Assembly: GCA_029253285.1 (NCBI GenBank) | Contig: JAQWZU010000176.1 | Coordinates: 1 to 50,420, forward strand | Direction: 5' to 3' | Origin: Akkermansiaceae bacterium | GTDB taxonomy: Bacteria; Verrucomicrobiota; Verrucomicrobiia; Verrucomicrobiales; Akkermansiaceae | Length of the DNA: 50,420 bases | Shown: in pieces, positions 1,151 through 47,310 of the stretch | How positions within the stretch are numbered: the stretch's first letter is position 1 | Layout: each line of letters starts with the position of its first letter | Notes under the pieces: model-generated | The model's input: the letters and a program-made list of their open reading frames with translations, nothing else | The model's database searches: none | What the model was told of the DNA's origin: nothing | Position numbers and translations under genes: made by a program

Positions 1151-2221
1151 ATGCCTCTCGACGACATTCGCAAAACGATCGATTCCATCGACACCCAGCT
1201 TCTCGATCTCCTCTCACAAAGAGCGGACGCCGTCCACGAAGTTGGTGAGATCAAGAAAAAGGAAGGTCTCCAAATCTACGCGCCCGAGCGTGAAGACGCC
1301 CTCCTCAAGTCTCTTGTCGAAAAAAACAAAGGACGTCTCCCCGAAAAATCGATCCGCGCAATTTACCGCGAAATCATGTCCGCCGCCCTCGCCTTGGAAG
1401 ACGACCTGAAAATCGCCTACCTCGGACCTGAAGGGACTTGGACCCACCAGGCCGCCATCCAAAAGTTCGGCCACTCCGTCGAATACCATTCCCTCGCCAA
1501 CTTCGCCGAAGTCTTCGACCACGTCACCCGGCGCAGAGCCAACTATGGCGTCGTCCCCATCGAAAACTCAACCGAAGGAGCTGTTTCCCACACCTTGGAT
1601 CTCTTCGTTGAATCCCCGCTCCGCATCTGTGCCCAAATCCTCCTCCGCATCGAAAACGGCCTCATGGCTTCTATTCCACGCGAGGAAATCAAGACCCTTT
1701 ATTCCCACCCACAGGTCTTCGGCCAGTGCCGTAATTGGATTCTCCAAAATTTTCCCGAGGCTGATCTCGTCGAGGTTTCCTCCACCACAAAGGCCGCCCA
1801 ATTAGCCAAGCAGAATGCCGCCGATGGTGCCGCCGCGATGGGAGGGCCGCTCGCTGCAGAACTTTACGAACTCACCATGCTCGAGGAAGCCGTCCAGGAT
1901 CGCGCCACTAACACCACGCGCTTTCTCGTCATCGGCGAAGAAACCTGTCCTTCCACCGGCAAAGATCGCACTTCCATTCTTTTTTCCGTCCACGACCGAC
2001 CCGGCTCTCTCGTCAAAGCCCTCCAGGCCTTCGACTCCTTCGAGATCAACATGTCCAAGATTGAATCCCGTCCTTCCAAACAAAAGGACTGGGAATACAT
2101 TTTCTATGTCGATCTCGCCGGTCATTGCGAAGACCCCGAAGTCCGCGATGCTCTCCACACCCTCGAGACCCACTGCTCTCTTGTGAAAATCCTAGGATCC
2201 TATCCGGATCTTTCCCTGTAG
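1151..2221 (+). CDS. pheA: Bifunctional chorismate mutase / prephenate dehydratase (P-protein)
   Basis: This 356-residue cytoplasmic enzyme converts chorismate to prephenate and then to phenylpyruvate for phenylalanine synthesis. Three domains are visible. An AroQ-type chorismate mutase covers residues 1-85 and begins with the typical IRKTIDSIDTQLLDLLSQR helix. Prephenate dehydratase covers about 87-270, with YLGPEGTWTHQAA at 90, VPIENSTEGAVSHTLDLF and the catalytic-site segment NTTRFLVIG. A C-terminal ACT domain covers about 278-350, with TSILFSVHDRPGSL and the phenylalanine-binding signature KIESRP. The ACT domain implies feedback inhibition by phenylalanine. Length and domain order are normal for the family. 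A 53-base gap separates it from the sugar operon, so co-transcription is possible but not shown. Confidence 0.97.
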   Translation: MPLDDIRKTIDSIDTQLLDLLSQRADAVHEVGEIKKKEGLQIYAPEREDALLKSLVEKNKGRLPEKSIRAIYREIMSAALALEDDLKIAYLGPEGTWTHQAAIQKFGHSVEYHSLANFAEVFDHVTRRRANYGVVPIENSTEGAVSHTLDLFVESPLRICAQILLRIENGLMASIPREEIKTLYSHPQVFGQCRNWILQNFPEADLVEVSSTTKAAQLAKQNAADGAAAMGGPLAAELYELTMLEEAVQDRATNTTRFLVIGEETCPSTGKDRTSILFSVHDRPGSLVKALQAFDSFEINMSKIESRPSKQKDWEYIFYVDLAGHCEDPEVRDALHTLETHCSLVKILGSYPDLSL

Positions 2222-2274: not shown

Positions 2275-2685
2275 ATGCTTCAAGAAGGTATTCTTAATCC
2301 ACAGCTCAACGATCTTCTTTCCCGAATTCGCCACACCAACACCCTGGTCATCGCTGATTGGGCCTTTCCTTACTGGAATGACGTTGAAATTGTGGACCTC
2401 TCTCTCACTCGCGGCATTCCCCTCATCACCGATCTTCTCGATGTCCTGAAGGTGAACTTCAAGGTCGGGCACATTTGGCAGGCCGAGGAATTCCTCAACA
2501 CCAATCCCGACGAGGTCATCACGAAATACAACGACAGCTTCGACGGCTTCAATAGACTCTATCCCGAGCTCGAAGTCAGCCGTCTCCCCCACAACGACTT
2601 CAAAAAAATGGTTCCCGACGCCATTGGCCTCATTCGAACTGGCGACCCCACCGCCTACGGCAACATCATTCTCGAATCAGTTTAA
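2275..2685 (+). CDS. RbsD/FucU family sugar mutarotase/pyranase
   Basis: The 136-residue product matches RbsD/FucU, small enzymes that interconvert pyranose, furanose or anomeric forms of sugars such as ribose and L-fucose. The start MLQEGILNPQLNDLLSRIRH places His20 and Asp28 (VIADW) where RbsD has its catalytic His20 and Asp28. The C-terminal IRTGDPTAYGNIILESV matches the conserved RTGE-x-x-PYAN-x-IL family end. It is the first gene of a tightly spaced operon (21 bases to the next gene) with a hexose dehydrogenase and UxaE. I therefore infer a mutarotase for L-galactose or L-fucose rather than ribose, since no ribokinase or ribose transporter is nearby. The family call is firm; the substrate is inference. 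Confidence 0.9.
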   Translation: MLQEGILNPQLNDLLSRIRHTNTLVIADWAFPYWNDVEIVDLSLTRGIPLITDLLDVLKVNFKVGHIWQAEEFLNTNPDEVITKYNDSFDGFNRLYPELEVSRLPHNDFKKMVPDAIGLIRTGDPTAYGNIILESV

Positions 2686-2706
2686 TTATTTCAGATTAAC
2701 ACACCG

Positions 2707-3519
2707 ATGAAATCCGCAATCACTCTTTCCCAAGTCCCCGAGGCCGCCGCCGGACCCTTCGTTTTCCACGAGCCTCTCACCGAAGGCTTTGCCTCCGCAG
2801 CAAAGCACGGCTACGACTCGGTCGAACTCTTTTTTCCCGGACCCGACTTCATCACGGTCGATGAAGTAAACGCTCTCGCCGCCGAACACGACCTCGGCAT
2901 CGCCGCCGTCGGAACCGGAGCCGGCATGGTAAAGCACGGCCTTTCTCTCACCGATCCCGATCCCTCCATCCGCAAAAAAGCCCTCGATTTCATTCTCCAA
3001 ATGATCGACTTCGGCGGCCAACTCGGTTGCCCTGCCATCCTCGGATCGATGCAGGGAAAATGGGGCGGCGACGTCTCCCGTGGGCAAGCTCTCCAATGGC
3101 TCGCCGAAGCCCTCAAAGTCGCCGGTGAAGCAGCTGGCAAACACGGCGTCGCTTTCATCTACGAACCCCTCAATCGCTACGAGACCAACTTGATCAATCA
3201 CCTCGCCGAAGGCGCCAAGTATATCGAAGACAACAATCTCGAGAACATCGTTCTTCTTGCCGACCTATTCCACATGAACATCGAGGAAAGTGACATCGCT
3301 CAAGCGATCATTGATGCCGGAAAACACACTGGCCACGTTCACTTCGCCGACTCTAACAGAAACGCCATGGGCATGGGCCACACTGATTCCGCCCCCATCA
3401 TCGCCGCCCTTAAGCAAGTCGGATACACTGGTTACCTCTCCGCCGAAGTCTTCCCCAAGCCCGACGCACAAGCCTGCGCCGCCCAGGAAATCAAAGCCAT
3501 CAAAGAAGCTCTCGCCTAA
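2707..3519 (+). CDS. Sugar phosphate isomerase/epimerase family protein (TIM barrel)
   Basis: A 270-residue AP-endonuclease-2-type TIM barrel, related to D-tagatose 3-epimerase, hydroxypyruvate isomerase and inosose isomerases. The four metal ligands expected of the fold are visible: Glu153 (IYEPLNR), Asp186 (LLADLFHMN), His212 (GHVHFADSNR) and Glu247 (LSAEVFP). The YEPLNRYETNL and HVHFADSNR segments are typical of ketose 3-epimerase or isomerase subgroups. There is no signal peptide, so it acts in the cytoplasm. It lies between the mutarotase (21 bases upstream) and an aldo/keto reductase (20 bases downstream). Its step in the pathway is not evident from sequence. It could act on a ketose side product or on a keto acid. 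Confidence 0.9.
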   Translation: MKSAITLSQVPEAAAGPFVFHEPLTEGFASAAKHGYDSVELFFPGPDFITVDEVNALAAEHDLGIAAVGTGAGMVKHGLSLTDPDPSIRKKALDFILQMIDFGGQLGCPAILGSMQGKWGGDVSRGQALQWLAEALKVAGEAAGKHGVAFIYEPLNRYETNLINHLAEGAKYIEDNNLENIVLLADLFHMNIEESDIAQAIIDAGKHTGHVHFADSNRNAMGMGHTDSAPIIAALKQVGYTGYLSAEVFPKPDAQACAAQEIKAIKEALA

Positions 3520-3539
3520 TCCAAATTCATTTCCAAAAC

Positions 3540-4478
3540 ATGGAAACACGTCCTCTCGGCAACACCGGAATCGACCTGCCGGCTCTTTCTTTTGGCGCCT
3601 CTTCACTCGGTGCCGAGTTTCGCTCCATCGACCTCAACGAAGCCTTCGGCGCGGTCCACACCGCTCTCGACCTTGGCATGAACTTCATCGACACCTCGCC
3701 CTTCTACGGTCGCGGCATGTCGGAAGTAATGCTTGGACAGGCCCTCAAAGGAATTGATCGCGAGAGCTATCTCCTCGGAACAAAACTTGGACGTTATTCA
3801 CTCGAGCACTTTGACTTCTCAGCCAAACGCGTCGACGAATCTCTCCATGTTTCCATGCACCGCATGGGGACTGATCACCTCGACCTCATTCTTCTCCACG
3901 ACGTCGAGTTTGTGAAGCTTCCCCAGATTTGGGAAGAAACCATCCCCGCCCTGCTCAAGGCCAAGGCCGAAGGAAAAGTCCGCGCCATCGGCTTCTCGTG
4001 TTACCCCATGGCTTGCTTCAACACCGTGCTCGATCAAGTAGAAGACGACATCGATTGCGTTCTCTCCTATAACCAATACACGCTCCAAAATACAGCCTTC
4101 GCTGACGAACTCGTTCCTCGGTTGAAGAGGAAAAATCTCGGAGCGATCAACGCCGGCCCCTTCTCAGCTCGACTCCTCACCAACGCCGAACTTCCCGAAT
4201 GGCTCAAGGAGCCCGAGGAAGTCAAAGCCGCCGCCCGCGCCGCCGCCAAACTCTGTGAAGACAACGGCGTCGATATTGCACAACTCGCTCTACAGTTCTC
4301 CTGCGAAAATCCCGACATCGCCTCTACCGTCGCCGGATCCGCCAATCCCAAGAATGTCGCGAAGTGGGCCAAGTGGCTCTCCGAACCCATCGACCGAGAT
4401 CTCCTTGCAGCCGTCCAGGAAATTTTCGCCCCGGTCAAAAACATCGGACACCTCGAAGGACTTCCCGCAAATAATTAA
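3540..4478 (+). CDS. Aldo/keto reductase, L-galactose (L-fucose) 1-dehydrogenase-like
   Basis: A 312-residue NAD(P)-dependent aldo/keto reductase. The catalytic tetrad is visible as Asp51 and Tyr56 (FIDTSPFYG), Lys82 (GTKLGRY) and His120 (LLHDVEF). Several segments closely follow plant L-galactose dehydrogenase and bacterial L-fucose or D-threo-aldose 1-dehydrogenases: the LGNTGIDLPALSFGASSLG start, the FDFSAKRVDESL block, HDVEF and VLSYNQYTLQN. Those enzymes oxidise C1 of the sugar to the 1,4-lactone. With RbsD/FucU upstream and a hexonate-type dehydrogenase downstream, I infer oxidation of L-galactose, with L-fucose or D-arabinose as alternatives. No lactonase gene is in the cluster, so the lactone may open spontaneously or through an enzyme encoded elsewhere. 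Confidence 0.92.
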   Translation: METRPLGNTGIDLPALSFGASSLGAEFRSIDLNEAFGAVHTALDLGMNFIDTSPFYGRGMSEVMLGQALKGIDRESYLLGTKLGRYSLEHFDFSAKRVDESLHVSMHRMGTDHLDLILLHDVEFVKLPQIWEETIPALLKAKAEGKVRAIGFSCYPMACFNTVLDQVEDDIDCVLSYNQYTLQNTAFADELVPRLKRKNLGAINAGPFSARLLTNAELPEWLKEPEEVKAAARAAAKLCEDNGVDIAQLALQFSCENPDIASTVAGSANPKNVAKWAKWLSEPIDRDLLAAVQEIFAPVKNIGHLEGLPANN

Positions 4479-4490
4479 TCACTTTCTAAA

Positions 4491-5528
4491 ATGTCATACG
4501 CCATTGAATTCACCGACGTCAAAGAGATCAACGCCGTTGATCTCCCCAACATCGAAGCGCCCGGACCGGGAGAAGCTCTCGTCCGAACTCATCGGATGGG
4601 AATCTGCGGTACCGACCTTTCCTGTTATCTTGGAAAGTTCCCTTTCTTCTCTTATCCGCGCACTCCCGGACATGAACTCGGACTGGAAGTCATCGCAGTT
4701 GGTGAAGGCGTCACGAATGTGAAGCCCGGGGACAAGTGCTCGCTCGAGCCTTACCTTAACGACCCCGAGTCCATTCCTTCTAAAAAGGGACACTCCAATG
4801 CTTGTTCAAACGTCTCCGTAGTGGGCGTTCACCAAAGCGGCGGACTTCGAAAATCAGACTGGACCGTCCCCGCTCACAAGCTTCATCCCGGCAACGATCT
4901 TTCCTACGACGAACTTGCTCTGGTGGAAACTCTCGCCATCGGCTACCACGCCGTAAAACGCGGAAACCCACAACCCGGTGAAACCGTCATGGTCATCGGC
5001 GCCGGCCCCATCGGCCTCTCCTGTCTCGAGTTCCTCAAGCTCATGGACCTCAAAATCCTTGTCGTCGACTTCGCGCAAAACCGTCTCGACTTCTGTGCCG
5101 AAAACCTTGGCATCCCGCACCCCATTCTCGCCAAACCCGACGGCTCACACCTTGCGGAAATTGAAACGATCACCGAAGGCGGATTTTGCGACGTCATCAT
5201 CGACGCCACCGGTCACGCCGGCTCCATGGTGCAATGCCATCAATACGCTGCCGTTGGAGGCCGTGTGGTCTACGTCGGCATCACCGCGCAAGAACTCACC
5301 TTCCCACAAGCTCCCTTCTTCCACCGCCGTGAACTCTCCGTTATGGCCAGCCGCAATGCGCTTCCCGCAGACTTCCCCGAGATCATCCAGATCATCACCG
5401 ACGGAAAGATCAATCTGCAAAACTGGATCACCCATCGCCTCGACATCACCGAAGTCCCCGAGGAATTCGACAAGTTCACCGCCCCCGCCACCGGCGCCCT
5501 CAAAGCGGTGATCACCGTGAATGACTAA
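4491..5528 (+). CDS. Medium-chain zinc-type dehydrogenase (LgoD-like hexonate dehydrogenase)
   Basis: A 345-residue medium-chain dehydrogenase/reductase. The catalytic zinc motif is present with Cys39 (GICGTD) and His61-Glu62 (PGHELG). The Rossmann nucleotide-binding motif IGAGPIG is near residue 170. The structural-zinc loop is degenerate. Where the family normally has four cysteines, residues 91-105 carry Asp, Ser, Ser and only Cys105, so this zinc is probably absent. The family includes L-galactonate 5-dehydrogenase and L-gulonate 5-dehydrogenase. Since uxaE follows by 35 bases, I infer oxidation of L-galactonate to D-tagaturonate. Oxidation of L-gulonate to D-fructuronate is the main alternative. 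Confidence 0.9.
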   Translation: MSYAIEFTDVKEINAVDLPNIEAPGPGEALVRTHRMGICGTDLSCYLGKFPFFSYPRTPGHELGLEVIAVGEGVTNVKPGDKCSLEPYLNDPESIPSKKGHSNACSNVSVVGVHQSGGLRKSDWTVPAHKLHPGNDLSYDELALVETLAIGYHAVKRGNPQPGETVMVIGAGPIGLSCLEFLKLMDLKILVVDFAQNRLDFCAENLGIPHPILAKPDGSHLAEIETITEGGFCDVIIDATGHAGSMVQCHQYAAVGGRVVYVGITAQELTFPQAPFFHRRELSVMASRNALPADFPEIIQIITDGKINLQNWITHRLDITEVPEEFDKFTAPATGALKAVITVND

Positions 5529-5563
5529 AATCGCAATACTCAGAAAACCAACTCACTCTTCTT

Positions 5564-6814
5564 ATGAAAACCTGTCCTAAATTCACCTTCGGCGTCGGCG
5601 ACCGTTTCGCTCACGGCGCCCACGCCCAACTCCAAGCCTTTATCGACGCCAAAGAACTCGGCGTCGACATCTGCCCGACCTGGAACAAGTCCAATCGCGA
5701 GCATGAAATCATTGGCTCCGAACCCCAGACCACCCGAGACGCCGCCGATAAAGCCGTCGCCGATCTTGGCTGGGAAGGCGAATACCTCCTGGATGCCGAT
5801 CACATCAATCTCTCCACGGTTGACCGCTTCGTGGAGCCATGCAACTTCTTCACCCTCGACGTGGCTGATGACATTGGCGAAGCCGCTGCTCCCGAAGATG
5901 TCGAAGCCTTTATCAACAAGCACCCCGAGCTCATCGGCTCCGTTTCCGTCGAGGGTATCGACGTTCCTCTCGAAATCTCCCGCGAGCTCGTAGAGAAGAC
6001 CGCGAACCAATTCCTCAAGGCCACTCAAAAAGCCAAAGCGATCTACGATCACATCGTGGCAGCCAAGGGCGGCACCGATGACTTCGTCACCGAAGTCTCC
6101 ATGGACGAAACTGATAACCCACAGGTTCCTGCCGAGATGCTCATCATCCTCGCTGCAATCGCTGACCAGGGAATCCCTATTCAAACCATCGCACCAAAAT
6201 TCACCGGCCGCTTCAACAAAGGTGTCGACTACGTCGGAGATGTCGCGCAATTCGAACAGGAATTTAACGACGACCTAGCCGTCCTCGCACACGCCGTGAA
6301 AGCGTACGGACTTCCCGAGACTCTCAAACTTTCCGTCCACTCTGGATCCGATAAATTCTCCATCTACGAACCCATCAAAAAAGCCATCGCCCGCACCGGG
6401 GCCGGGCTTCACATCAAAACTGCAGGTACCAACTGGCTCGAAGAAGTCATCGGACTCGCCACCGCAGGCGGAGACGCCCTCGACCTTGCCAAAGAAATCT
6501 ACGTCAAGGCTCTCGAGAAAAAAGAAGCTCTCTGCGAACCCTACGCCACCGTCATCGACATCGACCACTCACAACTTCCAAGCGCCGTGGAAGTCAACGG
6601 CTGGAACAGCGAGCAATACGTCAGCGCCCTCACGCACGACCAAAGCAACCCCGGCTACAATGCCAACGTTCGCCAACTCCTCCACGTCGGTTTCAAAATC
6701 GCCGCCCAAATGGGTGACCGTTACCTCAACGCCCTTAAGGCCAACGAAGCCGTCATCTCAAAATGCGTCACCGGCAACCTCCTCGACCGCCACATGAAGC
6801 CCCTGTTCGCTTAG
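5564..6814 (+). CDS. uxaE: Tagaturonate/fructuronate epimerase (UxaE family)
   Basis: A 416-residue cytoplasmic protein of the UxaE family, first described in Thermotoga. UxaE interconverts D-tagaturonate and D-fructuronate and so joins the galacturonate and glucuronate catabolic branches. Family landmarks are FGVGDRFAHGAHAQLQAF near the start, LLDADHINLSTVDRF around residue 72, TGRFNKGVDYVGDVAQFEQE, SVHSGSDKFSIYEPIKKA and HIKTAGTNWLEEVIGLA. It is the last gene of the five-gene operon and is followed by a clear hairpin terminator. An enzyme that acts on 5-keto-hexonates at the end of this operon is what ties the upstream dehydrogenases to L-galactonate or L-gulonate rather than to deoxy sugars. 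Mannonate or altronate reductases are not in the window. Confidence 0.9.
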   Translation: MKTCPKFTFGVGDRFAHGAHAQLQAFIDAKELGVDICPTWNKSNREHEIIGSEPQTTRDAADKAVADLGWEGEYLLDADHINLSTVDRFVEPCNFFTLDVADDIGEAAAPEDVEAFINKHPELIGSVSVEGIDVPLEISRELVEKTANQFLKATQKAKAIYDHIVAAKGGTDDFVTEVSMDETDNPQVPAEMLIILAAIADQGIPIQTIAPKFTGRFNKGVDYVGDVAQFEQEFNDDLAVLAHAVKAYGLPETLKLSVHSGSDKFSIYEPIKKAIARTGAGLHIKTAGTNWLEEVIGLATAGGDALDLAKEIYVKALEKKEALCEPYATVIDIDHSQLPSAVEVNGWNSEQYVSALTHDQSNPGYNANVRQLLHVGFKIAAQMGDRYLNALKANEAVISKCVTGNLLDRHMKPLFA

Positions 6815-6894: not shown

Positions 6895-7809
6895 TTAAGA
6901 AAGAGAAGCATATTTCACATCAAAAGGAATCGGACACGCCACATCCTTGATCCAAGCTTCCTTCTTCATCCAGGAACGCTGGCGTTTTGCGAATCGACGT
7001 GTGCTCGTGTGGAAACCTTTATGACATTCCTTTAAGGTGATCTTCCCATCGAGATGGTCTTCAATCTCGGAAAATCCAATCGTTTTTCGGCAAGTGGCTG
7101 AAGCTGTTCCCCGCAGAGCCTTCACCTCATCAAGCCCTCCTTTTTCCAAAATCTGCATCGTTCGTGAGCTAATCCGCTGCTTGGAATTGTCATTGTCCCA
7201 GAGGAGATATAGCCCACGAAGCGTCTGGGAAATTTCATCAAACTTCCGAAACTGCTCTTCTTTCAAAACCGACATCTTCTGTCCCGAAAGCAAACAAATT
7301 TCCAAGGCCCGAATGAGATAACGCCGATTCTTCAAATCAGTCGCAGCTGCGCCCTCTGGATCAAGACTCTTTAGTTCTTCAGCCAAATCATCATTGCTCC
7401 GCTCCTCAAACTTCACCCGAAGTACATCATCGCGCTCTGGAATTGAGGAAGGACCATGCGTCAGCATCTTCAAATAAACTCCCGAACCTCCTACCACAAT
7501 CGGCACCTTGCCCCGCGATTGAATCCCCTCAATCACTGGCAGGGCTAAATTGCGAAATGCCAGAGGATCACAAAACTCCGTCGGTTCCAATACCCCGTAA
7601 AGATGGTGCGGCAATTGCGCCTGTTTTAAATCAGAAGGCGATGAACCAAGAATTTCAAGCCCCCGATACGCCTGAGCGACATCTCCATTCACAATTTCCC
7701 CACCTAATTCCAACGACAGTGAAATGGCCAAGGACGATTTCCCGGACGCCAAGGGTCCGCAAATGTAAAGGGGCGAGGGTAAAGAAGCAGACATGCCGGA
7801 GAAGAGCAT
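6895..7809 (-). CDS. miaA: tRNA dimethylallyltransferase (MiaA)
   Basis: MiaA transfers a dimethylallyl group to N6 of A37 in tRNAs reading UNN codons. Visible motifs are the P-loop YICGPLASGKSSLA, AQAYRGLEIL (the usual form is DSxQVYRGxDI), LPHHLYGVLEPTE, VPIVVGGSGVYLKML, and the C-terminal TSTRRFAKRQRSWMKK, which matches the conserved TR-x-YAKRQ-x-TWF motif. I chose ATG at 7809 because GGAG sits five bases upstream. This gives about 304 residues, usual for MiaA. A longer reading from TTG at 7887 adds 26 unconserved residues, and ATG at 7794 is a second alternative. The usual Asp-Ser before QVYRG is Asp-Val here, a mild deviation. It is divergent from the acyltransferase-like gene. Confidence 0.95.
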   Translation of the reverse strand: MLFSGMSASLPSPLYICGPLASGKSSLAISLSLELGGEIVNGDVAQAYRGLEILGSSPSDLKQAQLPHHLYGVLEPTEFCDPLAFRNLALPVIEGIQSRGKVPIVVGGSGVYLKMLTHGPSSIPERDDVLRVKFEERSNDDLAEELKSLDPEGAAATDLKNRRYLIRALEICLLSGQKMSVLKEEQFRKFDEISQTLRGLYLLWDNDNSKQRISSRTMQILEKGGLDEVKALRGTASATCRKTIGFSEIEDHLDGKITLKECHKGFHTSTRRFAKRQRSWMKKEAWIKDVACPIPFDVKYASLS

Positions 7810-7910
7810 AAGACTCCGTGCAAGTCTACTGATACCGAGGAAACCCCCTCTCTCATCAAAACTCTTTTCACGATTGAGAAGATCCAAGAATTCCCTACAA
7901 ACCGAACATC

Positions 7911-31920: not shown

Positions 31921-34098
31921 GTGATCAACCTGAACCGCCTCTTCATTCCACTTCTCCTCGCGCTCCCACTCTTCGCACAGTCACCGAAGACCATCGAGCG
32001 CGGCTCCATCATCGAGGACCGCGCAGCACGCAAGCTATTACAGGCCGGCGATTCCCGACTGGAGGTCGGAGAAAACGAAAAGGCTCTCGAGATTTGGGAT
32101 TCGGTCGTCGAGCGCTACCCGCGCAGCCAGATCCGTTTCGAGGCCCACCTTCGTCTTGCCGATCATCTCCTCAAGGAGATCAAGGACTTCGACAAGGCAC
32201 GCCTTCATTACGAAGCCGCTGCCGTTGAAACCAACGAGGACGACGAGAAACGCGCCTACGCTTTTCTCAACACCGGAGCTTGTTTCTACGAGGCCGGAAA
32301 CTACGGGAAATGCTTCAGCATCATGCGTGATGTGATCGAGCAATTTCCAACTTCTCCAGAAGTCAACGAAGCCTACTACTACATCGGACTCGGACACTTT
32401 AAACTCGGACACTTCAGCCGTGCCATCGAAGCTCTCGAAAAAGTCGGCACCGCGCTCTCAAACAAGGACAAGCAGATTGAAAAAGTCGAAGCTGGAAAGC
32501 GCCTCTACGTAAAAATCGACGATCAGGACTTCGCCATCCTCGAGCCGGGCTCGCAAATCAAAGTCATTTGCCGAACCAAAAGCGGCGACGAGGAAACCAT
32601 CTTATGTGATCCTGTCGGACGCAATGCACGAATCGCCTTGGGACGCATCCCCACAAAACTCAATAAGGCCACCCCCAACAATGGCACTTTGGAAGTCCGG
32701 GGTGGCGATCACATCAAGGTCACCTACATCGACGCCCACACTGCTGAGAAAGGCTTCAACGAAAAACGCCTTAAGGAGGTTGTCGTCGTCGGCAATGGCG
32801 TTGCCCGCATTACTGACGGTTCCTATCAACGCGACCTCCCCGCCGCCGTCCTTGGAAAACATCTTCACCTTCAAATCATCGACGCCGATCATGATACGAG
32901 CGAGGGAGCCGACAAAGTCGAAGCGACCATCCAGATTTTCCGGCGCAAGACTCCGGATGAAATTGACGACGAACTTGCCAAAGGGGTCGCCAGTGGAGAA
33001 CTCGTCGAAGGACCCGAAGGTGAAGACCTTAAGTCACAGATCGACCCTCTCCTCATGATCCGCTCTGTTCCGGTTTCTCTTCTAGAGCAGGAACAAAAAG
33101 GAACCTTCCGCCTCGCTATCCCTCTCCGCATTGGAACGGCTGAGGGGACTCTCACCGGAGAATCCGGTCAGACTATCCGTCTTATCTACCGCGACGAACA
33201 GAACCTCACCGACAGCGCAGCCATCCGCACCTCGGAAACAAAAATCATCGAGGGCAACCTCGGCGAAGTCCGCGTCACCCGCACCGATATTTCAGATGAG
33301 GAACTCCGCCTCAAAACCCAACTTCAAACCGCCTCTGCTCTGACTGAAGTGGGTAATCACTACAAGGAATTCGGACTCAACGACAAGGCCGATCTCAAAT
33401 ACACCGAAGCTCTCGATGTCTGCGAAGAAATCCTCGTCGAAGCTCGCAAAGTCGGGGGCAAGCTTCTCGAAGAAACCTACGTGCAACTCTGGCGAATTTA
33501 TTTCGCCATGGACAAACTCGACTTGGCCCTCGGCATGAGTCGTCGCCTCCTCAACGAATTCCCCTCAAGCTCCTTTGTCGACGAAGCGATGCTCCAACAA
33601 GCCCACGTCGAGCGAAAGCGCGAGAACTTCCCGCGTGCCATCAGCCTCTACTCCGCCATCACCAAACTCCCCACCAGCCCGCTACGTGGCGAAGGACAGT
33701 TCTACACCGGCGACTGTTACGAGAGTATGGCCTTGAAGGCGAATCTCGGCCAATCGTCACCTCTTTTTGAAAAGGCCTTCCTTGCCTATCAAAAAGTTTA
33801 CGAGCAATTCCCCGACTCCGGACGCGTCGGTGACGCCGTCGCAAAAATGGCAGCCTTCTACTACCAAAAGGAAGACTACACCCGCGCCATCGATGTTTTC
33901 GAAAACGTCCTCTCAGATCATCCCGACGCGAACTTCCTCGACGTCATTCTCTTCAATTACGGACGCTGCCTCTACAAGCTCGAGCGCAAACCCGAGGCCC
34001 GTCGCAGATTTGAACAATTAATCAACGATTACCCCGAAAGCGAGATCGCCTCGGAAGCTAACAAGATCGTTGGAGCGCTCAAAAAAGCAGGATTTTGA
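31921..34098 (+). CDS. Exported TPR protein with beta-type repeat insert
   Basis: About 725 residues. The GTG at 31921 gives a clear signal peptide (MINLNRLFIPLLLALPLFAQ); the open frame upstream overlaps DUF1501 and is not used. TPR-like helical repeats fill residues 30-180, for example AYYYIGLGHFKLGHFSRAIE, and again 480-720, for example LFNYGRCLYKLERKPEARRR. Between them lies a beta-rich section with the unit also found in the giant protein downstream: a segment ending in NNGTLEVRGGDHIKVTYIDA near residue 265, then LHLQIIDADHD, then GQTIRLIYRDEQNLTDS. I do not recognise a named family. The stop overlaps the next start by four bases (TTGA), so coupling with the giant gene is tight. A periplasmic scaffold is inferred. 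Confidence 0.85.
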   Translation: MINLNRLFIPLLLALPLFAQSPKTIERGSIIEDRAARKLLQAGDSRLEVGENEKALEIWDSVVERYPRSQIRFEAHLRLADHLLKEIKDFDKARLHYEAAAVETNEDDEKRAYAFLNTGACFYEAGNYGKCFSIMRDVIEQFPTSPEVNEAYYYIGLGHFKLGHFSRAIEALEKVGTALSNKDKQIEKVEAGKRLYVKIDDQDFAILEPGSQIKVICRTKSGDEETILCDPVGRNARIALGRIPTKLNKATPNNGTLEVRGGDHIKVTYIDAHTAEKGFNEKRLKEVVVVGNGVARITDGSYQRDLPAAVLGKHLHLQIIDADHDTSEGADKVEATIQIFRRKTPDEIDDELAKGVASGELVEGPEGEDLKSQIDPLLMIRSVPVSLLEQEQKGTFRLAIPLRIGTAEGTLTGESGQTIRLIYRDEQNLTDSAAIRTSETKIIEGNLGEVRVTRTDISDEELRLKTQLQTASALTEVGNHYKEFGLNDKADLKYTEALDVCEEILVEARKVGGKLLEETYVQLWRIYFAMDKLDLALGMSRRLLNEFPSSSFVDEAMLQQAHVERKRENFPRAISLYSAITKLPTSPLRGEGQFYTGDCYESMALKANLGQSSPLFEKAFLAYQKVYEQFPDSGRVGDAVAKMAAFYYQKEDYTRAIDVFENVLSDHPDANFLDVILFNYGRCLYKLERKPEARRRFEQLINDYPESEIASEANKIVGALKKAGF

Positions 34099-37000
34099 AA
34101 ACACCACTTCCCTACCTCGCCCTCGTTCTCGCCCTCAGTCTGCCGGCCCATGCTGATCGGGGCGCCGATTTGGAGGCCAAGCTCAAGGAAACAACCGAAG
34201 CTTCCTCCACCGGAGCGAAGCTCATGAAAGAGCTCACTGAGCTCTATTGGAAAAACGAACAAGTATTTGGATTCATCAGAACCACCGGAAAGTTCTCCCG
34301 AGCTCAGACGAAAAACCCGGAGCGCGCCGCCATGACGCTGAAGCAAATGGACGGCTACGCCGCCGCGGCTCGTCACGAAGACGTCATTATCACCGGACGA
34401 CAGTTCCTCGAGATTTTCCCCAAGCACGCCCTCACCAACAAAGTCCGCGACCGTATTGCCACGGCCCTGGAACACACCGGACGGGGTGGCCACGCTGCCG
34501 TCGAACGCACCGCCATCTGGAACAATGGAGGGTCGACCGACCAGGGAGTCCACGCCCTTCGTCTCGCCATCAAGGTCAACAATGGCGACTCCTATAAGAA
34601 AGCCTCTGCACTCGCCGCCGCGATGGTTGCCAAACTCCCCGCCACTCCCCTTCTCACCGGTGTGGGATTCCAGGGCATGCAGGCCGCCGAGCGCTCCGAG
34701 CAATGGGCCGATGGCCTCCAGATTTCCAAAGCTCTTATCCGTCGCAAGGCCCCCATGAACGACGGCACCAAGAAAGACCTTTGGTTCCGCACCGGACGCT
34801 TCGAGACCCGTCTCGGACAATTCGAAAACGCCATCCAATCGTATCGCAAGGCACTCAGCCCTGGCAAAGACGACGTCCACCGTAGCCTCATCGAGGCCAT
34901 GGCCAACGGGAAAAAAGCACCCGCTGAGATCGAAGCCGAGGCCCGGCGCTATATTGCAGCCTATCCATTCAGGGAGGATCGCTATACTCCTCTCACCCAA
35001 GCTGCCCATGCGGCCGCGGCAGCAAAGGACACTAATCGCGCGCTCGCTATCGCCGAGGATATTCTCCGTCTAGGCACCCCTACCCCCGACTTACCCCGTG
35101 CCTATGTCAAATGGTGTGGAGAAAACCACAAACGCGCCGAACAGGGCCTTATCAAGCTAATCGGCCAAACCGAAAAGGGAGCCGGCACTCTTCGCGCCGT
35201 CCTCGCAATCGATGTCTATCGCGACGGGCTCAAAGACGTCGCCAAGGCCCGCAGCATGGCCTATGACTACCTTTCCAAATCTCCTACTGACGACGGTTGG
35301 ACCGAAGAAATCACCAGTTTTCTTTATGACTCCGCAAGTGGTGAAGAAACCTTCAAAAAAGACCTCGCCACCATCAGCGCCAGCGCCAAGACCTTTCCTC
35401 ATCTCAGCGGATTCCAGGAGCGGATTTGGAAACGCTCACCTCAAGATAAGAACCGAAAACGCGCTTGGCAATCCAGTGCCAAAGCTCATCAAAACAACTC
35501 TATCACCAAGCTCTGGAGATCAACCCTGGAAAAGGGCGGCAAGTCCGGACAGAGTTGTCAAAAGCTCCTCCAACAGAAACTTAGCAAGGAGCAACGTCAC
35601 TACCTTCTCTCCCGGCTCGCCTACGTATACCGCCATCACCTTGGAGGAAAGTCCCGCGCCAACGCCGCGAAACACTACCAGAGTCTTTGCAAGGAATTCC
35701 CACGCGACCTCAGCGCAGCCGAGGCATGGCTCGAGGCCGCTCCCTACTCTGAAGGCGACGGGAAGCAGGAAATGAAAATCGCGGCAGCCAATCACCTCCT
35801 CTCCATTCCGGCCGGACCTACGAACTACGAGACTTGGTATCGCATTGTCGAAATCAAAGACGAAACAATTATCCGCAAGGCCATTCCCTGGATTACGGCT
35901 TCGACCAAAATCAGTGGCTACAGTTCCGCTCACTCCACCCGCATTGGTGACGTCATGAACGAAATCGGCATGAAAGCCGAAGCCGCCAAGTGGTGGAAAT
36001 CCCGCATGGATCTCGACCCCAACAACAACGAATACGTCTCATGCGCCCGGCGTTACGCCTCCACCCTCGAACCTGCCGCGGCACAGAGCTTTTTCGGGGC
36101 CCGTATGATGGCTGACACCAACTATCACGGGAGCTACGCCGCGGAACTTGCCAACCAGCTTTTCATCGCCGACAAGCTCGAAGCCATGGAGCCCATCCTC
36201 AAAAAATCCCGCGCCCGGGCCGATCAAGATCCCTTCCGCTCCTGGGGCATGGGAGACTATCCCGCCCGGAATTGGCTGGATACCACCCGCAACTCCAAAG
36301 AATGGTCCGAGGATAAAAAGAACCGCGTTTACCGCATGGTTCGCGACCTCCGTCTCGGCAGGGTCAGCACTGAAGCAGGCCTCGAACTTCTGGCCAAGGA
36401 ACCCAAATCCATCGAACGACTTCTCAAGGCCCAGACTCTCATCGAACAAGCCGACCGTCACTATGAATCCTGGCGTCGCATCTATCCATACGCGCAAGCC
36501 GCCCTTGCACGTAAAGACTTCTCACTCGGCACGGCCATCCTCAATGGACTCCTCAACACCATCCGTTCAGTCGGCAATGCCGAAACAACGGCAGCCCGAA
36601 ACCTCCTCCGCAACGCTTACGGGAAAATGGGCAGCCTCAGCGCAGACATTCCCGCAGACAGCCCCATCGCCCCCCTTCTCCAAATCATCCTGCATCGCCG
36701 TCTTGGCGACGAAGACCTTGCAGAACAAGCCTACTATGCAAACAAGGAGCTCTTCGACAAACACCGCAACGAACTCCCGGTCGAACTCCTTCTCTTTGGC
36801 GCCGAAATCCACATCGCCCAGGGAACACCGGAAGACCACGAACGCGCCGAAGATATCCTCCGCGGATGGATGATCAAATTTGGCGAATCCGACAAAGTAG
36901 ACATCCGCGACAAGTCCCGCATTCAACTTCTCCTCGCCCGCAACTACCAACGGGCTCGGCAATACGACATTGCCCGCGCCGAGTTCACCACCGTTTTAAA

Positions 37001-40000
37001 CATCTACAAGGACCAACCTGAAGCCGTCGACGCACGCTTTGGAATTGGTGAAACCTACATGGCGCAACGCGTCTACGACCAAGCTGCGGAAATATTCACC
37101 GACCTCTCGGAAAACCCAAATCCTGCCATCGCCATCCGTGCCAACTTCCTCCGCGGCGTCCTTGCGATCCGACAGGACGACAACCAGGAAGCCCGCAAGA
37201 TTTTCCTCTCCGTTCTGGAGCAAGCACCCGACACCGAACTGGCCAACGAAACGCTCTACAACCTCGCTGAAGTCTACGGAATCGAACAGCGCTTTCTTAC
37301 CCAACTCGAGACCCTCCGTACCGTCGGACGCCTCGGACAGGAATCCAAACTCTGGCACACCCCCGGTAAAGCTCTTTCCGTCGTGGTGCAGGATCCCGAC
37401 CTCGGCATCAGTCGTGGTGATACCCGCATCCCAGTCATCGTCACCACCGAACCCGGGAATGATCGCGAGCAATCTTTCCTCACCAGCGGAGGTGCCGGCA
37501 AAGGAATCTTCCTAACCGAATTCCCCACCACTCTCGGAGAACCCACGCCCGATGATGGTGTCCTGCAAGTCACCGGAGGAGACGTCATCTCGGTGGACTA
37601 CCCCGAAGAATTCAAGAAACAATTTCAGTTCGAATTCCTAAGCAACACCCGCCTGCGTATCGCTTCGGATGGTGCGCTCGAAGTCGCCAGCAGCGAAATC
37701 ATCAACGAAGACGACGAGACATTCACCGACAACCTAAAAAAAGAAATTGAAGGTAAAAAGGAAGAGCAATCCCGTTCCGCCTCCCGCCCCAAGAATCAGG
37801 TCAAACCTGGCAACTTGATCTACACGCAGGTCAAAGACGGCGACCGCGACCTCACCGCCGCTCCGGATAAAGTCAGCGTCAAGCTCACGGCTTCCAGCGG
37901 GGACGAAGTCCAAATAATGATCGATGAGGAGAGCCAGCACGGCGGCGTCTTCCTCGGGATGGCACGCACGGGGGAACTTCCCGCCGGAGCCAGCGCCTCC
38001 GACTCAGCCCTCGATCGCAATCCGCTCATGGCCATTGACCACTCCACCGACACCGCCTGGCGCAGTGAACCGGATGGCGCGGCCCCCAAGTCGCTCTCGG
38101 TCGACATGAAGGAACTTCGCCCAACCGAAGCCATCATTCTCAGCTCTCCGGAAGCCGAACAGGAAGCGCCCGTCCGAATGAAAGTTCGCGGCAGCCACGA
38201 CGGACGATTCTGGTTCAATCTCGCCTCCTTCCCCACTCCGGCCGAAACTCAACCTTTAAAGTTTACCGAAGCCGGCATGAATCTTCGCGTTTACAAAACG
38301 CCTGCCAAAAACCTACGCAAGGCGTATTCCTGGACCGACATTGTCGGCCTCGTTCAAAAAGTCGATCCTTCCGAAACCAAGAAGGTCGAAACTCTTTCCT
38401 GGGAAGCTCCCGAGGAAACCAAGGACGCCTTCTTTCTTATCTGGTCCGGCCCCTTCGTCCAAGAAAGAGACGGCGCGATCCGTATCGAAGTCACAGGCCG
38501 CAATACTGCCGTCATGTTCAACGGACGACTCGAACTCCCAATCGGCGACGGGGATCAAAGCATCGATATCCACGCGCCTCGCGGTATTCATGACCTCACT
38601 ATCTTCACAATTTCCACCCCCGACGAGAGAACCGTGGAGGCCCGCCTTGCGAAAGAGAACCGACAGTCCTCTACCGTGAAAATTCGCCCCTTTCTCGCCA
38701 GCGACTTCGACCCGGGCTCAGTCGCCGACATTCAGAAATTCACTCCGCTCCCACCGGCTGAAATCAAGCAGGAAGAAAACCGTTGGACACTTTCGATGCC
38801 CGCTCGCGAACTTCGCTATGTAGACTTCGAATTCCTCGAGTATCGCGGCGAAGCCATCGCTATCAACAACGTCGAAATCAGCGGAGGTGGAAACAAGCAC
38901 ATGCCACCCGAGGCTGACGTTCTAGAACTCGCCACCAACGATATTCTGGAACTGGCGCCCGGAGACACCGTGAATATCTCCTATCTCGACGAACTCACCG
39001 CAGGTGCCGAACAACGCAATCGACTTCTCACTAAATCTCTCACCGCCACTTACTACAACGGCGAGATTACTCCCATCAGCTACGACTTCAACCGCAGCGG
39101 TGATGGTTCGGTCAGAGGGGCCCGCAAGGAACTCCTCCGCATCGAACCCGGTGAACGCATCGTCGCCGAAGTCGTCGACTTTGATTTGGATATCGGACTC
39201 GACCGAGACGAGGTCGAAGTGGAAGTTCAGATCAATTCAGACCCACCTTTCAAAGTTACCGCTACCGAGTCCGGCTCGTCGACCGGAGTCTTCCTCGTCG
39301 AGATCGACACTGCTGCCGAAGCTACCGAAGGAAAGGTCGTCGTCAAAAAAGGTGACAAGGTTTACCTTCGCTACAAAGACACCCAAAACACATTCCCCGG
39401 ACATGCCTTCTATCGTGAGACAGTCGTCCTACTCAACGAGCCCACCGAGGCCCGCATTCAAATCGTCGGCAGCGAGACACCCATCGAAGGCGCCCCGAAA
39501 TTCATCCCCGGGACCTTCGACCCCGAGCACGTCAGCAAAGTCGAATACCGACTCCCCCTCACTGTCGAGGTCGTCGACCCAGACCAAGCCAAAGATTCCC
39601 GCAGCACCATTCTTGTTGATGTCGTCACCACCCAGGGCGCCAAAATTCAAGTTCAATGCGTCCTCTCCCGCGCCTACGCCACCGACGATGAAACCCTATC
39701 CGACGTTCGCAATCCGGCTCTACAGGAAGGCCGTTTTGTCGGTCAAATCCCCCTCCTCCTCGGAGACCCGCAAAGCGCCAACATCGTTCCCGAAGACGGA
39801 ACACTCCCCCGGGGAGGTCTTGGTAAAGTCATCCTCCCTGTCGACGACGATCCTGAAGCAGCCCTCGACGATGGCTCGAGCAAAAACACCGCCGCCCTAG
39901 CGATACTCAACGTCATCGGCTCCGACACCTTCACTGCCCGATACGACGACACCGTCCGCCCCGACGGAGCCAAGACTTCGCTTGATGCCTCGGCAACGCT

Positions 40001-41216
40001 CGCCTCTGCCGCAACTCTCGAGATCACCGATGAGGAATATTTGGAAACCGCCGAAATTGTATACGTCGGGAAAAAGATCTTCCTCCGCCTTGAAGATCCC
40101 GACCGCGACCTTTCCAATAAACGGGACAGGGCCATGATTCGCATCGTCACAGCCAGCGGCGAAGACGAAACGATCGAACTCGAAGAAACGCTCACCCACA
40201 GCGGTGTCTTCAGCGCATCTTTCCCGCTCTCGGCTCAGGCCAAGCCCGTTTCTGGAAACTTTGAAGGAAGTATCGAATGCTTCTTCGGAGATGAGATCAC
40301 TGTCGGCTATCTCGACAACATTCCCCAGCGCCCTGATGGAGAGGCAATCATCGAAAAGATGATACCCGTCGCCATCGGAACCAATGGTGTCATGGCCGCG
40401 TTCAGTAAGATCTACAAGAACGAAGACCTCGCCATCCAAACGCAGTTCCACATTGCCGAAAGTCACTTTGAGCTCTTCAAGAGCCACCGCAAACTCAAGC
40501 ACGACGAGTCAGCCGCCACTGCCCTCGCTGCCGGACGTCGCGTCCTCCGCGAACTGCGTGACGATTATCCGAATCCCAAGTATGCCCCACGCGTTTCCTA
40601 CCTCCTCGGTCAGTTTGCACAGGAAATGGAAGCCTGGGACGAAGCGATTGCCGCATACGGCTCCATCGTCCGCAATCATCCCGAGCACAACCTCGCTCCG
40701 GATTCCCAATACAAACTCGGGCAGTGTCACGAAGAAGCCGGTGAACTCGACGAAGCTCTCGAAGCCTACGTCACTCTCGCCGGCACCTACCCCAAGAGCC
40801 CGCTCATCGCGAACGTTATGCTCCGCATCAACGAGCACTTTTATGTAAAGGAAGACTTCGCTGTGGCAGCCTCAGTTGGAGTCAAATTCCTCGAAAAATT
40901 CCCCAACCACGAATGGACTCCCAAGATGGCCTTCCGTATTGGCCAGTGCCACTACAAGCTCGAAGAATTCCTCAAGGGCGGCGAAGCTTTCGACCGCTTT
41001 GCCAAGCGCTTCCCGGACCAGGAACTCACTGCACAGTCTCTCTTCTGGGCGGGCGAAAGTTACCGCATGGGCAAGGACATCCCCAATGCTTTCCGTCGCT
41101 ACAACCGCTGCCGCTGGGACTTCCCGGAAAGTGATGCTGCCAAGTATTCCCGTGGCCGTCTTGCTCTCCCCGAGCTCCTGGCTCAATTTGAACGCGAAGC
41201 AAATCTGAACGAATAA
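34095..41216 (+). CDS. Giant exported TPR and beta-repeat protein (2,373 residues)
   Basis: The TTG start at 34095 overlaps the previous stop and gives a signal peptide (MKTPLPYLALVLALSLPAHA). Residues 20-1090 are TPR-like helical repeats. Residues 1090-2090 are beta-rich and hold several copies of a unit with Asp-rich strands, a GD-containing turn and a GVF strand, for example VVQDPDLGISRGDTRIPVIV near 1095, DGDRDLTAAPDKVSVKL near 1246, DFDLDIGLDRDEVEVEVQI near 1694 and DPDRDLSNKRDRAMIRIV near 2000. A discoidin (F5/8 C)-like module sits around 1300-1365 (NPLMAIDHSTDTAWRSEPDG, then RMKVRGSHDGRFWFNLASF). Residues 2103-2370 are TPRs again, of the Ybgf/BamD-like kind. No transmembrane segment follows the signal, so it is probably periplasmic or surface-bound. 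No catalytic motif is seen. exbB follows by ten bases. Confidence 0.85.
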   Translation: MKTPLPYLALVLALSLPAHADRGADLEAKLKETTEASSTGAKLMKELTELYWKNEQVFGFIRTTGKFSRAQTKNPERAAMTLKQMDGYAAAARHEDVIITGRQFLEIFPKHALTNKVRDRIATALEHTGRGGHAAVERTAIWNNGGSTDQGVHALRLAIKVNNGDSYKKASALAAAMVAKLPATPLLTGVGFQGMQAAERSEQWADGLQISKALIRRKAPMNDGTKKDLWFRTGRFETRLGQFENAIQSYRKALSPGKDDVHRSLIEAMANGKKAPAEIEAEARRYIAAYPFREDRYTPLTQAAHAAAAAKDTNRALAIAEDILRLGTPTPDLPRAYVKWCGENHKRAEQGLIKLIGQTEKGAGTLRAVLAIDVYRDGLKDVAKARSMAYDYLSKSPTDDGWTEEITSFLYDSASGEETFKKDLATISASAKTFPHLSGFQERIWKRSPQDKNRKRAWQSSAKAHQNNSITKLWRSTLEKGGKSGQSCQKLLQQKLSKEQRHYLLSRLAYVYRHHLGGKSRANAAKHYQSLCKEFPRDLSAAEAWLEAAPYSEGDGKQEMKIAAANHLLSIPAGPTNYETWYRIVEIKDETIIRKAIPWITASTKISGYSSAHSTRIGDVMNEIGMKAEAAKWWKSRMDLDPNNNEYVSCARRYASTLEPAAAQSFFGARMMADTNYHGSYAAELANQLFIADKLEAMEPILKKSRARADQDPFRSWGMGDYPARNWLDTTRNSKEWSEDKKNRVYRMVRDLRLGRVSTEAGLELLAKEPKSIERLLKAQTLIEQADRHYESWRRIYPYAQAALARKDFSLGTAILNGLLNTIRSVGNAETTAARNLLRNAYGKMGSLSADIPADSPIAPLLQIILHRRLGDEDLAEQAYYANKELFDKHRNELPVELLLFGAEIHIAQGTPEDHERAEDILRGWMIKFGESDKVDIRDKSRIQLLLARNYQRARQYDIARAEFTTVLNIYKDQPEAVDARFGIGETYMAQRVYDQAAEIFTDLSENPNPAIAIRANFLRGVLAIRQDDNQEARKIFLSVLEQAPDTELANETLYNLAEVYGIEQRFLTQLETLRTVGRLGQESKLWHTPGKALSVVVQDPDLGISRGDTRIPVIVTTEPGNDREQSFLTSGGAGKGIFLTEFPTTLGEPTPDDGVLQVTGGDVISVDYPEEFKKQFQFEFLSNTRLRIASDGALEVASSEIINEDDETFTDNLKKEIEGKKEEQSRSASRPKNQVKPGNLIYTQVKDGDRDLTAAPDKVSVKLTASSGDEVQIMIDEESQHGGVFLGMARTGELPAGASASDSALDRNPLMAIDHSTDTAWRSEPDGAAPKSLSVDMKELRPTEAIILSSPEAEQEAPVRMKVRGSHDGRFWFNLASFPTPAETQPLKFTEAGMNLRVYKTPAKNLRKAYSWTDIVGLVQKVDPSETKKVETLSWEAPEETKDAFFLIWSGPFVQERDGAIRIEVTGRNTAVMFNGRLELPIGDGDQSIDIHAPRGIHDLTIFTISTPDERTVEARLAKENRQSSTVKIRPFLASDFDPGSVADIQKFTPLPPAEIKQEENRWTLSMPARELRYVDFEFLEYRGEAIAINNVEISGGGNKHMPPEADVLELATNDILELAPGDTVNISYLDELTAGAEQRNRLLTKSLTATYYNGEITPISYDFNRSGDGSVRGARKELLRIEPGERIVAEVVDFDLDIGLDRDEVEVEVQINSDPPFKVTATESGSSTGVFLVEIDTAAEATEGKVVVKKGDKVYLRYKDTQNTFPGHAFYRETVVLLNEPTEARIQIVGSETPIEGAPKFIPGTFDPEHVSKVEYRLPLTVEVVDPDQAKDSRSTILVDVVTTQGAKIQVQCVLSRAYATDDETLSDVRNPALQEGRFVGQIPLLLGDPQSANIVPEDGTLPRGGLGKVILPVDDDPEAALDDGSSKNTAALAILNVIGSDTFTARYDDTVRPDGAKTSLDASATLASAATLEITDEEYLETAEIVYVGKKIFLRLEDPDRDLSNKRDRAMIRIVTASGEDETIELEETLTHSGVFSASFPLSAQAKPVSGNFEGSIECFFGDEITVGYLDNIPQRPDGEAIIEKMIPVAIGTNGVMAAFSKIYKNEDLAIQTQFHIAESHFELFKSHRKLKHDESAATALAAGRRVLRELRDDYPNPKYAPRVSYLLGQFAQEMEAWDEAIAAYGSIVRNHPEHNLAPDSQYKLGQCHEEAGELDEALEAYVTLAGTYPKSPLIANVMLRINEHFYVKEDFAVAASVGVKFLEKFPNHEWTPKMAFRIGQCHYKLEEFLKGGEAFDRFAKRFPDQELTAQSLFWAGESYRMGKDIPNAFRRYNRCRWDFPESDAAKYSRGRLALPELLAQFEREANLNE

Positions 41217-47133: not shown

Positions 47134-47310
47134 AATATTAATTAGAAAGTGATACGGCAAAGACTAGGAACTGTCCCTCCCCGAGCCAAGGCCCTTTCTT
47201 CTCCAAAAAATATTCCTTTCCCCAGCCCTCATTGCCTCTCTCAGACCAGCGGGAGACCCGAAGGATATTGCATTCACTATCAACCAACACCAAATTGCCT
47301 AAGCAAAGCT

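Follow-up and report, generated by a model that had tools for sequence, protein, structure and literature searches.

Gene content of the probable operon

We analyzed a stretch of 50,420 nucleotides (hereafter the window) from contig JAQWZU010000176.1 of an Akkermansiaceae bacterium (Verrucomicrobiota, assembly GCA_029253285.1), with a focus on five plus-strand open reading frames (ORFs) at positions 2275-6814. A first-pass annotation, made from the sequence alone, had read these as five tightly spaced genes for the conversion of L-galactose to D-fructuronate. The order and the spacing hold: the intergenic gaps measure 21, 20, 12 and 35 bp, and each of the five proteins scores above the cut-off of its Pfam family (RbsD_FucU, AP_endonuc_2, Aldo_ket_red, ADH_N/ADH_zinc_N and UxaE, respectively). 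The genes probably constitute a compact operon for L-galactose and, via an epimerase of the LguG type, also for L-glucose or another source of 5-keto-L-gluconate. We infer co-transcription of the five; a scan for terminators and promoters returned signals no more frequent than in shuffled sequences.

Active sites were compared in alignments of the relatives that cover nearly the whole window protein and are free of stops, with the window protein included. Row counts are given together with the number of distinct sequences, and differ from it because some genomes entered twice. The roles attached below to invariant residues of the mutarotase, epimerase, aldo-keto reductase and dehydrogenase are presumed ones.

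The first gene (2275..2685, +) encodes an RbsD-type sugar mutarotase (pyranase) of 136 amino acids (PF05025 89.6 bits; the closest solved relatives by sequence are the RbsD proteins PDB 3e7n/1ogc), which at 90.3 bits stays below the curated D-ribose pyranase score of 93 (NF008761). His20 and Asp28, presumably the catalytic residues, are intact as the annotation had stated and, like His106, Lys110, Tyr128 and Asn130, invariant in 45 rows (36 distinct). The second product (2707..3519, +), described before as a TIM-barrel isomerase, can be named more exactly as an IolO/LguG-type keto-uronate epimerase: its best NCBIfam model is the 5-keto-L-gluconate epimerase IolO (NF041099, 243 bits with a cut-off of 300) and its closest solved relative by sequence is TM_0416 (2zvr, E 8.3e-45). 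Glu153, Asp186, His189, His212 and Glu247 are invariant (71 rows, 53 distinct). Judged by its homologues, we infer it to be an LguG-like enzyme joining 5-keto-L-gluconate to D-tagaturonate.

The third gene (3540..4478, +) codes for an aldo-keto reductase (AKR) of 312 amino acids, predicted to be an L-galactose/L-glucose 1-dehydrogenase. In agreement with the earlier naming, each of its five best PDB sequence matches is a protein named L-galactose dehydrogenase (best E 1.3e-84), the closest solved relative being 9w6y. The residues Asp51, Tyr56, Lys82 and His120, which we take to be the AKR catalytic tetrad, are invariant (97 rows, 76 distinct). Next comes a zinc-dependent medium-chain dehydrogenase of 345 amino acids (4491..5528, +), a predicted L-galactonate/L-gluconate 5-dehydrogenase. 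Its NCBIfam matches are PRK10083 (155 bits, cut-off 376) and then IolM (132 bits, cut-off 450), and RspB (4ilk) is the closest solved relative by sequence. It is 34% identical to Escherichia coli LgoD, consistent with the label LgoD-like that it had received, and 50% identical to an LguD-type protein (locus L160), which lies outside the alignment and was compared with the window protein separately. Cys39, His61, Glu62 and Glu146, presumably the ligands of the catalytic zinc, are invariant (69 rows, 56 distinct).

The last gene (5564..6814, +) encodes a short UxaE of 416 amino acids, a predicted D-tagaturonate/D-fructuronate epimerase. The protein matches PF16257 with 180.9 bits (cut-off 27.1) over model positions 80-472 of 475, and the first 79 model positions are lacking. 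By sequence its closest solved relative is the UxaE of Cohnella, of which Asp159 and Glu126 are the catalytic residues according to a review (PMC11194214). If the printed chain numbering is one higher than the published one, Cohnella Glu126 and Asp159 align with Glu46 and Asp79 of the window protein; both are invariant, together with His80 (108 rows, 89 distinct). An AlphaFold model built from 33 sequences (predicted local distance difference test, pLDDT, 94.0) has a TIM-barrel fold and matches a Thermotogota structure (9lhu, TMq 0.83) and Cohnella UxaE (6il9, TMq 0.81). The identification as UxaE, made already in the first reading, is upheld for this shortened protein.

Relatives of the operon and exchange of the exit route

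A catabolic pathway for L-glucose and L-galactose (lgu genes) was published in 2025 for Luteolibacter sp. LG18 (PMC12632266). There the NADP-dependent AKR LguA oxidizes L-glucose and, with a 40-fold higher kcat/Km, L-galactose, and was reported inactive on L-fucose and D-arabinose. LguD (NAD) takes L-gluconate and L-galactonate as substrates, LguC (tagaturonate reductase) and LguB (altronate dehydratase) lead via D-altronate to 2-keto-3-deoxygluconate (KDG), and LguH and LguE finish the route. The gene lguG, clustered with 'rbsD' apart from lguA-F, is required for L-glucose and dispensable for L-galactose. The authors place the pathway in some Luteolibacter species and presume L-glucose to be absent from nature; the main text makes no mention of UxaE, fructuronate or mannonate. 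Among our genomes G082 carries an LG18-type cluster (L160), of which the LguD starts with the published N-terminus MKTLVLREPG and the LguA starts differently from the published one.

From a contig scan based on UxaE the best 80 of 92 relatives were kept as loci, in which ORFs were called by codon score. Many of these loci show rbsD, lguG, akr, mdr (the medium-chain dehydrogenase) and uxaE in line, including Haloferula rosea KCTC 22201 (L023), where an amidohydrolase gene joins the line. Planctomycetota loci carry the gene set too (L065, rearranged, and L078-L081). ORFs clustering with an Amidohydro_2 protein, one member of which was scanned and which we presume might act as a lactonase, occur in 17 of the 80 loci. 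L026 and L163 have genes for a 2-keto-3-deoxy-6-phosphogluconate (KDPG) aldolase and a ROK kinase after the cluster.

In a sample of 117 genomes of the family, an AKR relative (E 1e-40 or better) is present in 58. The surroundings of all 58 AKR genes were inspected, in stretches that vary in length and in several cases end at contig ends: 37 have uxaE only, nine have lguB and lguC only, 12 have neither and none has both, and lguG lies near the AKR gene in 41. The grouping is not due to chance, since uxaE and lguG recur nearby in 37 and 41 of the 58, respectively. An exit through UxaE had been regarded as an unusual layout, which does not agree with these counts, nor with the galacturonate locus of Thermotoga maritima, in which a UxaE also sits (PMC3750489). 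Counting either exit, 46 of the 117 sampled genomes of this one verrucomicrobial family carry an exit near the AKR, and in 37 of these it is UxaE. Genome-wide, the Mannitol_dh_C family (LguC/UxaB/UxuB) is found in 0/37 uxaE genomes and in 9/9 genomes with lguB and lguC, the latter because LguC belongs to that family. A Fisher test of uxaE against lguB plus lguC gives p 2.8e-5 with kinship ignored, and we rely on the pattern rather than on this value; like the gene content, gene order, conservation and intact active sites, the replacement is a direct observation.

With a window-type AKR (at least 65% identical to that of the window, n=43), 33 genomes have uxaE, one has lguB and lguC and nine have neither, and the surroundings hold lguG in 40 cases, rbsD in 26, the dehydrogenase in 32 and the amidohydrolase in 18. 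With an LguA-type AKR (42-50%, n=12) the numbers are four with uxaE and eight with lguB and lguC, and the three AKRs below 42% have neither exit. The window AKR is 45% identical to the LguA-type protein of L160, and in a tree of 39 chosen rows (for which a long-branch warning was given) window-type and LguA-type proteins are separated by a branch with support 100/99.

Two genomes combine these parts in other ways. In G048 (L158) genes for a window-type AKR (72%) and dehydrogenase (67%), for LguB- and LguC-type proteins and for an AraC-type regulator form one run on the same strand; the tagaturonate-reductase-like protein scores 351 bits (cut-off 359), and the altronate-dehydratase-type protein has galactarate dehydratase as best model (271 bits, cut-off 731) and is 75% identical to LguB of L160. 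This run ties the window-type AKR and dehydrogenase to D-tagaturonate. Conversely, G109 (L265) has uxaE, dehydrogenase and mutarotase (rbsD) genes of which the products are 90%, 80% and 78% identical to those of the window. Its AKR falls into the LguA type, being 62% identical to that of L164 and 45% to that of the window, and the 16.8 kb read contain no lguG. Given an LguA-type AKR in an otherwise window-like operon, the two AKR types seem interchangeable as far as their sequences and settings tell. One further locus (L168) holds LguA/LguD-type genes and uxaE together with fucose mutarotase and fucose isomerase genes.

Some variations on the layout were seen along the way. Roseibacillus-type loci (L031-L033, L035-L040, L056) keep lguG-akr-uxaE, mostly with a downstream amidohydrolase gene, and no dehydrogenase gene was seen in these clusters. 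In several relatives lguG and the AKR gene are separated by a molybdopterin oxidoreductase operon of opposite orientation, as in L012:1751-5649 (-), where it comprises a large subunit, a 4Fe-4S subunit and a weak nitrate-reductase-delta match; similar genes occur in L004, L006, L007, L015, L016 and L019, with scanned proteins from L012 only.

Proposed pathway and alternatives

Substrates and directions are assigned here from homology and gene context. The mutarotase would supply the right anomer, the AKR would oxidize the sugar at C1, and the lactone would open by itself or with the help of a lactonase from another locus. Oxidation of C5 by the medium-chain dehydrogenase would then turn L-galactonate into D-tagaturonate and L-gluconate into 5-keto-L-gluconate, which the LguG-type enzyme would convert to D-tagaturonate as well. 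Finally UxaE would epimerize D-tagaturonate to D-fructuronate, taking the place that LguC and LguB have in LG18. Homology, context and the published relative support the series from L-galactose via L-galactonate and D-tagaturonate to D-fructuronate that had been proposed at first, but not its restriction to L-galactose: as an LguG-type epimerase is needed for L-glucose and not for L-galactose in LG18, its presence in the operon makes a dual role, or a pathway fed by 5-keto-L-gluconate, likelier than L-galactose alone. A testable question is what sugar in nature accounts for the retention of an 'L-glucose' epimerase by these genomes.

A number of observations weigh against this dual pathway. 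The specificity of the AKR may differ, because it is only 45% identical to the LguA type and belongs to a sister group. No protein reaches the cut-off of an NCBIfam model (RbsD 90.3/93, IolO 243/300, PRK10083 155/376, and 78/550 at best for the AKR), and UxaE has no match there at all. No lactonase gene adjoins the operon, and none like the lactonase candidate of the relatives was found within the window. The counts of replacement are not independent of kinship. Of the 43 genomes with a window-type AKR, ten show no uxaE in the surroundings examined, which in some cases reach a contig end; a UxuA match exists in three of the ten (G013, G093, G101). The fold neighbours of UxaE include tagatose 4-epimerases (9lhu series, 9kcs). 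The window genome, which is 96.7% complete, yielded no UxuA, Mannitol_dh_C (PF08125), PF04295 or PF01081 protein, leaving the growth-supporting pathway incomplete as known.

Among the alternatives, the one that survives best, though we consider it quite unlikely, is that the operon serves 5-keto-L-gluconate derived from inositol, as in Thermotoga, with the AKR acting on another aldehyde or cyclitol. The Thermotoga inositol pathway includes IolM and IolO, and these are the second model of our dehydrogenase and the best model of our epimerase. The use of L-galactose by LG18 does not depend on LguG, yet 40 of the 43 window-type loci have lguG close to the AKR gene, and L-glucose is the sugar presumed absent from nature by the authors of that study. 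Against this, none of the five genes is of the IolG or IolN kind, as we understand these families, the five best PDB matches of the AKR all bear the name L-galactose dehydrogenase, and the dehydrogenase shares 50% of its residues with the LguD type. In G048, furthermore, the window-type AKR and dehydrogenase occur with LguB and LguC and without lguG (18 kb read).

Still less probable is a role of the AKR as a dehydrogenase of L-fucose or D-arabinose, with the operon belonging to a deoxy-sugar or pentose pathway. Broad threo-aldose dehydrogenases do exist in this AKR group, the cluster of L168 holds the fucose mutarotase and isomerase genes, and elsewhere in the window genome there are an L-arabinonate dehydratase (910 bits, cut-off 882) and other IlvD/EDD proteins. 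However, six-carbon keto-uronates are the known substrates of UxaE and of the IolO-type epimerase, no pentonate dehydratase is encoded among the five genes, and LguA was reported inactive on both sugars (PMC12632266).

A further reading would make D-tagatose or another neutral ketohexose, in place of D-tagaturonate, the substrate of the UxaE homologue, as its nearest folds, among them 9lhu and 9kcs (deposited as tagatose/tagose epimerases or isomerases), might suggest. We regard this as highly improbable. The protein retains the Glu and Asp that are catalytic in Cohnella UxaE, and no other operon gene has a known part in the formation or use of a neutral ketohexose. In three of the 80 loci (L043, L070 and L076), moreover, a UxaC-like gene is the immediate neighbour of this short form of UxaE. 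The UxaC-like call comes from a scan of the L070 protein and from clustering for L043 and L076; the cluster spans six loci, the other three being L057 and L055, 5.5 kb from uxaE, and L075, 3.2 kb from it.

Fate of D-fructuronate

D-fructuronate, which had been put forward as the end point, is reached in the L-galactose/L-glucose scheme but is not usable by known enzymes, as the families named above were not found; in the window genome it is without a textbook exit. UxuA was likewise not found in 10/10 genomes of the same genus (our own included) with an AKR at least 78% identical. It scores above the cut-off in three of the 37 uxaE genomes (G061, G014 and G085; below it in G109), and a match exists in 6/12 genomes with neither exit, 1/9 with lguB and lguC and 14/59 without the AKR. 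A second testable question concerns the use of D-fructuronate in the absence of UxuA, of reductases of the Mannitol_dh_C kind and, for this genome, of KDPG aldolase.

Several solutions were considered and rejected. A route to KDG via UxuA or altronate dehydratase was discarded given that these families were not found in the window genome. An enolase-superfamily mannonate dehydratase was dismissed too: PF13378 has only two places in this genome, an enolase-like ORF (L113, judged by eye) and L112:632-1972 (-), of which the sole NCBIfam match is a weak one to the racemase DgcA (25 bits). Dehydratases of the IlvD/EDD family, likewise set aside as the missing step, have three places (one the L-arabinonate dehydratase above cut-off, one overlapping an aldehyde-dehydrogenase-like ORF and one presumably IlvD). 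The first two are located at L204:7731-10456 (-), beside a gene like that of dihydrodipicolinate synthase (DHDPS), and at L205:6606-10021 (+), where the ORF overlapping the IlvD/EDD paralogue is aldehyde-dehydrogenase-like by appearance; these genes possibly belong to an oxidative pentose or sugar-acid pathway.

Candidates for another exit lie outside the operon, among them DHDPS-family proteins at five places of the window genome. A short-chain dehydrogenase/reductase (SDR, L113) has D-mannonate oxidoreductase as best model (243 bits, cut-off 281), and a PfkB kinase of the KDG-kinase kind (L116) is preceded by a 2-hydroxyacid dehydrogenase gene 35 bp upstream (L155). The three products are 62% (SDR), 59% (2-Hacid_dh) and 67% (PfkB) identical to counterparts in L060, where a fused 2-Hacid_dh/Ldh_2 protein, an SDR, UxaE and PfkB are encoded in one run with gaps below 30 bp. 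L078-L081 have AKR, dehydrogenase, UxaE, PfkB, Ldh_2 and SDR together. The fusion in L060 (5095-7185, 696 amino acids) combines a D-isomer-specific 2-hydroxyacid dehydrogenase with Ldh_2, which together could invert C2 of a 2-hydroxy acid.

It is possible, though doubtful, that D-fructuronate leaves through a bypass via 2-keto-D-gluconate in which neither UxuA nor KDPG aldolase takes part. The SDR would reduce D-fructuronate to D-mannonate, an Ldh_2-type (S)-2-hydroxyacid dehydrogenase would oxidize C2 of D-mannonate to give 2-keto-D-gluconate, the PfkB kinase would phosphorylate this compound, and the D-isomer-specific 2-hydroxyacid dehydrogenase would reduce the phosphorylated product to 6-phosphogluconate. 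The stereochemistry of these steps and their likeness to kguK/kguD are assumptions on our part. If true, the bypass would accomplish with NAD(P)-based enzymes what in the Thermotoga parallel is done by the nickel enzyme GntE (PMC7583248). A tested example of such a mannonate-oxidoreductase SDR is UxaD of T. maritima (PMC5673643), and a characterized 2-ketogluconate kinase also takes KDG, as some KDG kinases take 2-ketogluconate (PMC6651773). L. suebicus offers another parallel with its mannonate kinase and 6-phosphomannonate epimerase activities, for which the genes are not known; genes for steps of the mannonate-to-gluconate type are a recognized gap (PMC6978723).

Other evidence argues against the bypass. 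The closest PfkB relative seen (80%, G014) follows a KDPG aldolase, which points to a KDG kinase, with UxuA nearby on the other strand. In G063 a 61% relative stands beside an ORF joining UxuA to an SDR (L128). No Ldh_2 was present in the stretches read of our own genome, which was not searched as a whole for this family. The joined ORF of L128 (1495-3495) reads as 666 amino acids, and the PfkB beside it is KDG-kinase-like.

Other features of the window

Upstream of the operon, at a distance of 53 bp, lies pheA (1151..2221, +; chorismate mutase/prephenate dehydratase with Pfam PDT, CM_2 and ACT), which stands outside the pathway. Downstream a minus-strand ORF (6895-7887), presumably miaA, faces the operon. 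Farther along, positions 34095-41216 (+) encode a protein of 2373 amino acids that is rich in tetratricopeptide repeats and has a weak F5/8 type C match, and a second xylose-isomerase-like TIM-barrel protein is encoded at 46246-48753, divergent from a sulfatase.

Comparison with known systems

With LG18 the operon shares the AKR as first and the medium-chain dehydrogenase as second enzyme, D-tagaturonate as meeting point and an IolO-type 4-epimerase clustered with an 'rbsD' gene. It differs in being one compact operon where LG18 has separate loci, and in having UxaE where LG18 has LguC and LguB (PF08125 and PF04295 were not found in the window genome, nor was the KDPG aldolase family of LguE, PF01081). 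Compared to the LG18-type cluster of L160, the AKR is 45% and the dehydrogenase 50% identical, with the AKR in a sister group.

The L-galactose pathway of Phocaeicola (Bacteroides) vulgatus reportedly exits to D-altronate, and we know of no IolO-type epimerase in it. Relatives of our operon also carry an amidohydrolase, a possible lactonase, as in that pathway (BVU_0219/BVU_0222, cited in PMC12632266). E. coli LgoD is likewise a medium-chain dehydrogenase that acts on L-galactonate with D-tagaturonate as intermediate, but there reduction to D-altronate follows (PMC12632266) and LgoD is only 34% identical to the window protein. Paracoccus laeviglucosivorans 43P (lgdA and lgn genes) also runs from L-glucose via L-gluconate to 5-keto-L-gluconate, which it however reduces to D-idonate, carrying on through 2-keto-3-deoxygalactonate (KDGal) (PMC12632266). 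In T. maritima (gnd-uxaRED-gntEK) UxaE likewise turns tagaturonate into fructuronate (PMC3750489, PMC7583248). This branch differs in that it starts from galacturonate and that C2 is inverted by the nickel enzyme GntE, which links mannonate to gluconate so that no UxuA is needed (PMC7583248).

Beside the red-algal galactans named in the first-pass annotation, L-galactose also occurs in the pectin rhamnogalacturonan II (PMC6353982), and in one relative (L168) fucose genes share the cluster. In the excerpts of the open literature no L-galactose pathway with a UxaE exit was found, the matches concerning 3,6-anhydro-L-galactose, pectin composition, UxaE of hexuronate pathways and marine genomes. 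For a passage from mannonate to gluconate through 2-ketogluconate the open papers gave no match, and the one match linking mannonate and 2-keto-D-gluconate to fructuronate was fungal. The upper part of the pathway has been published already, and the variant with UxaE as its predicted exit is new.

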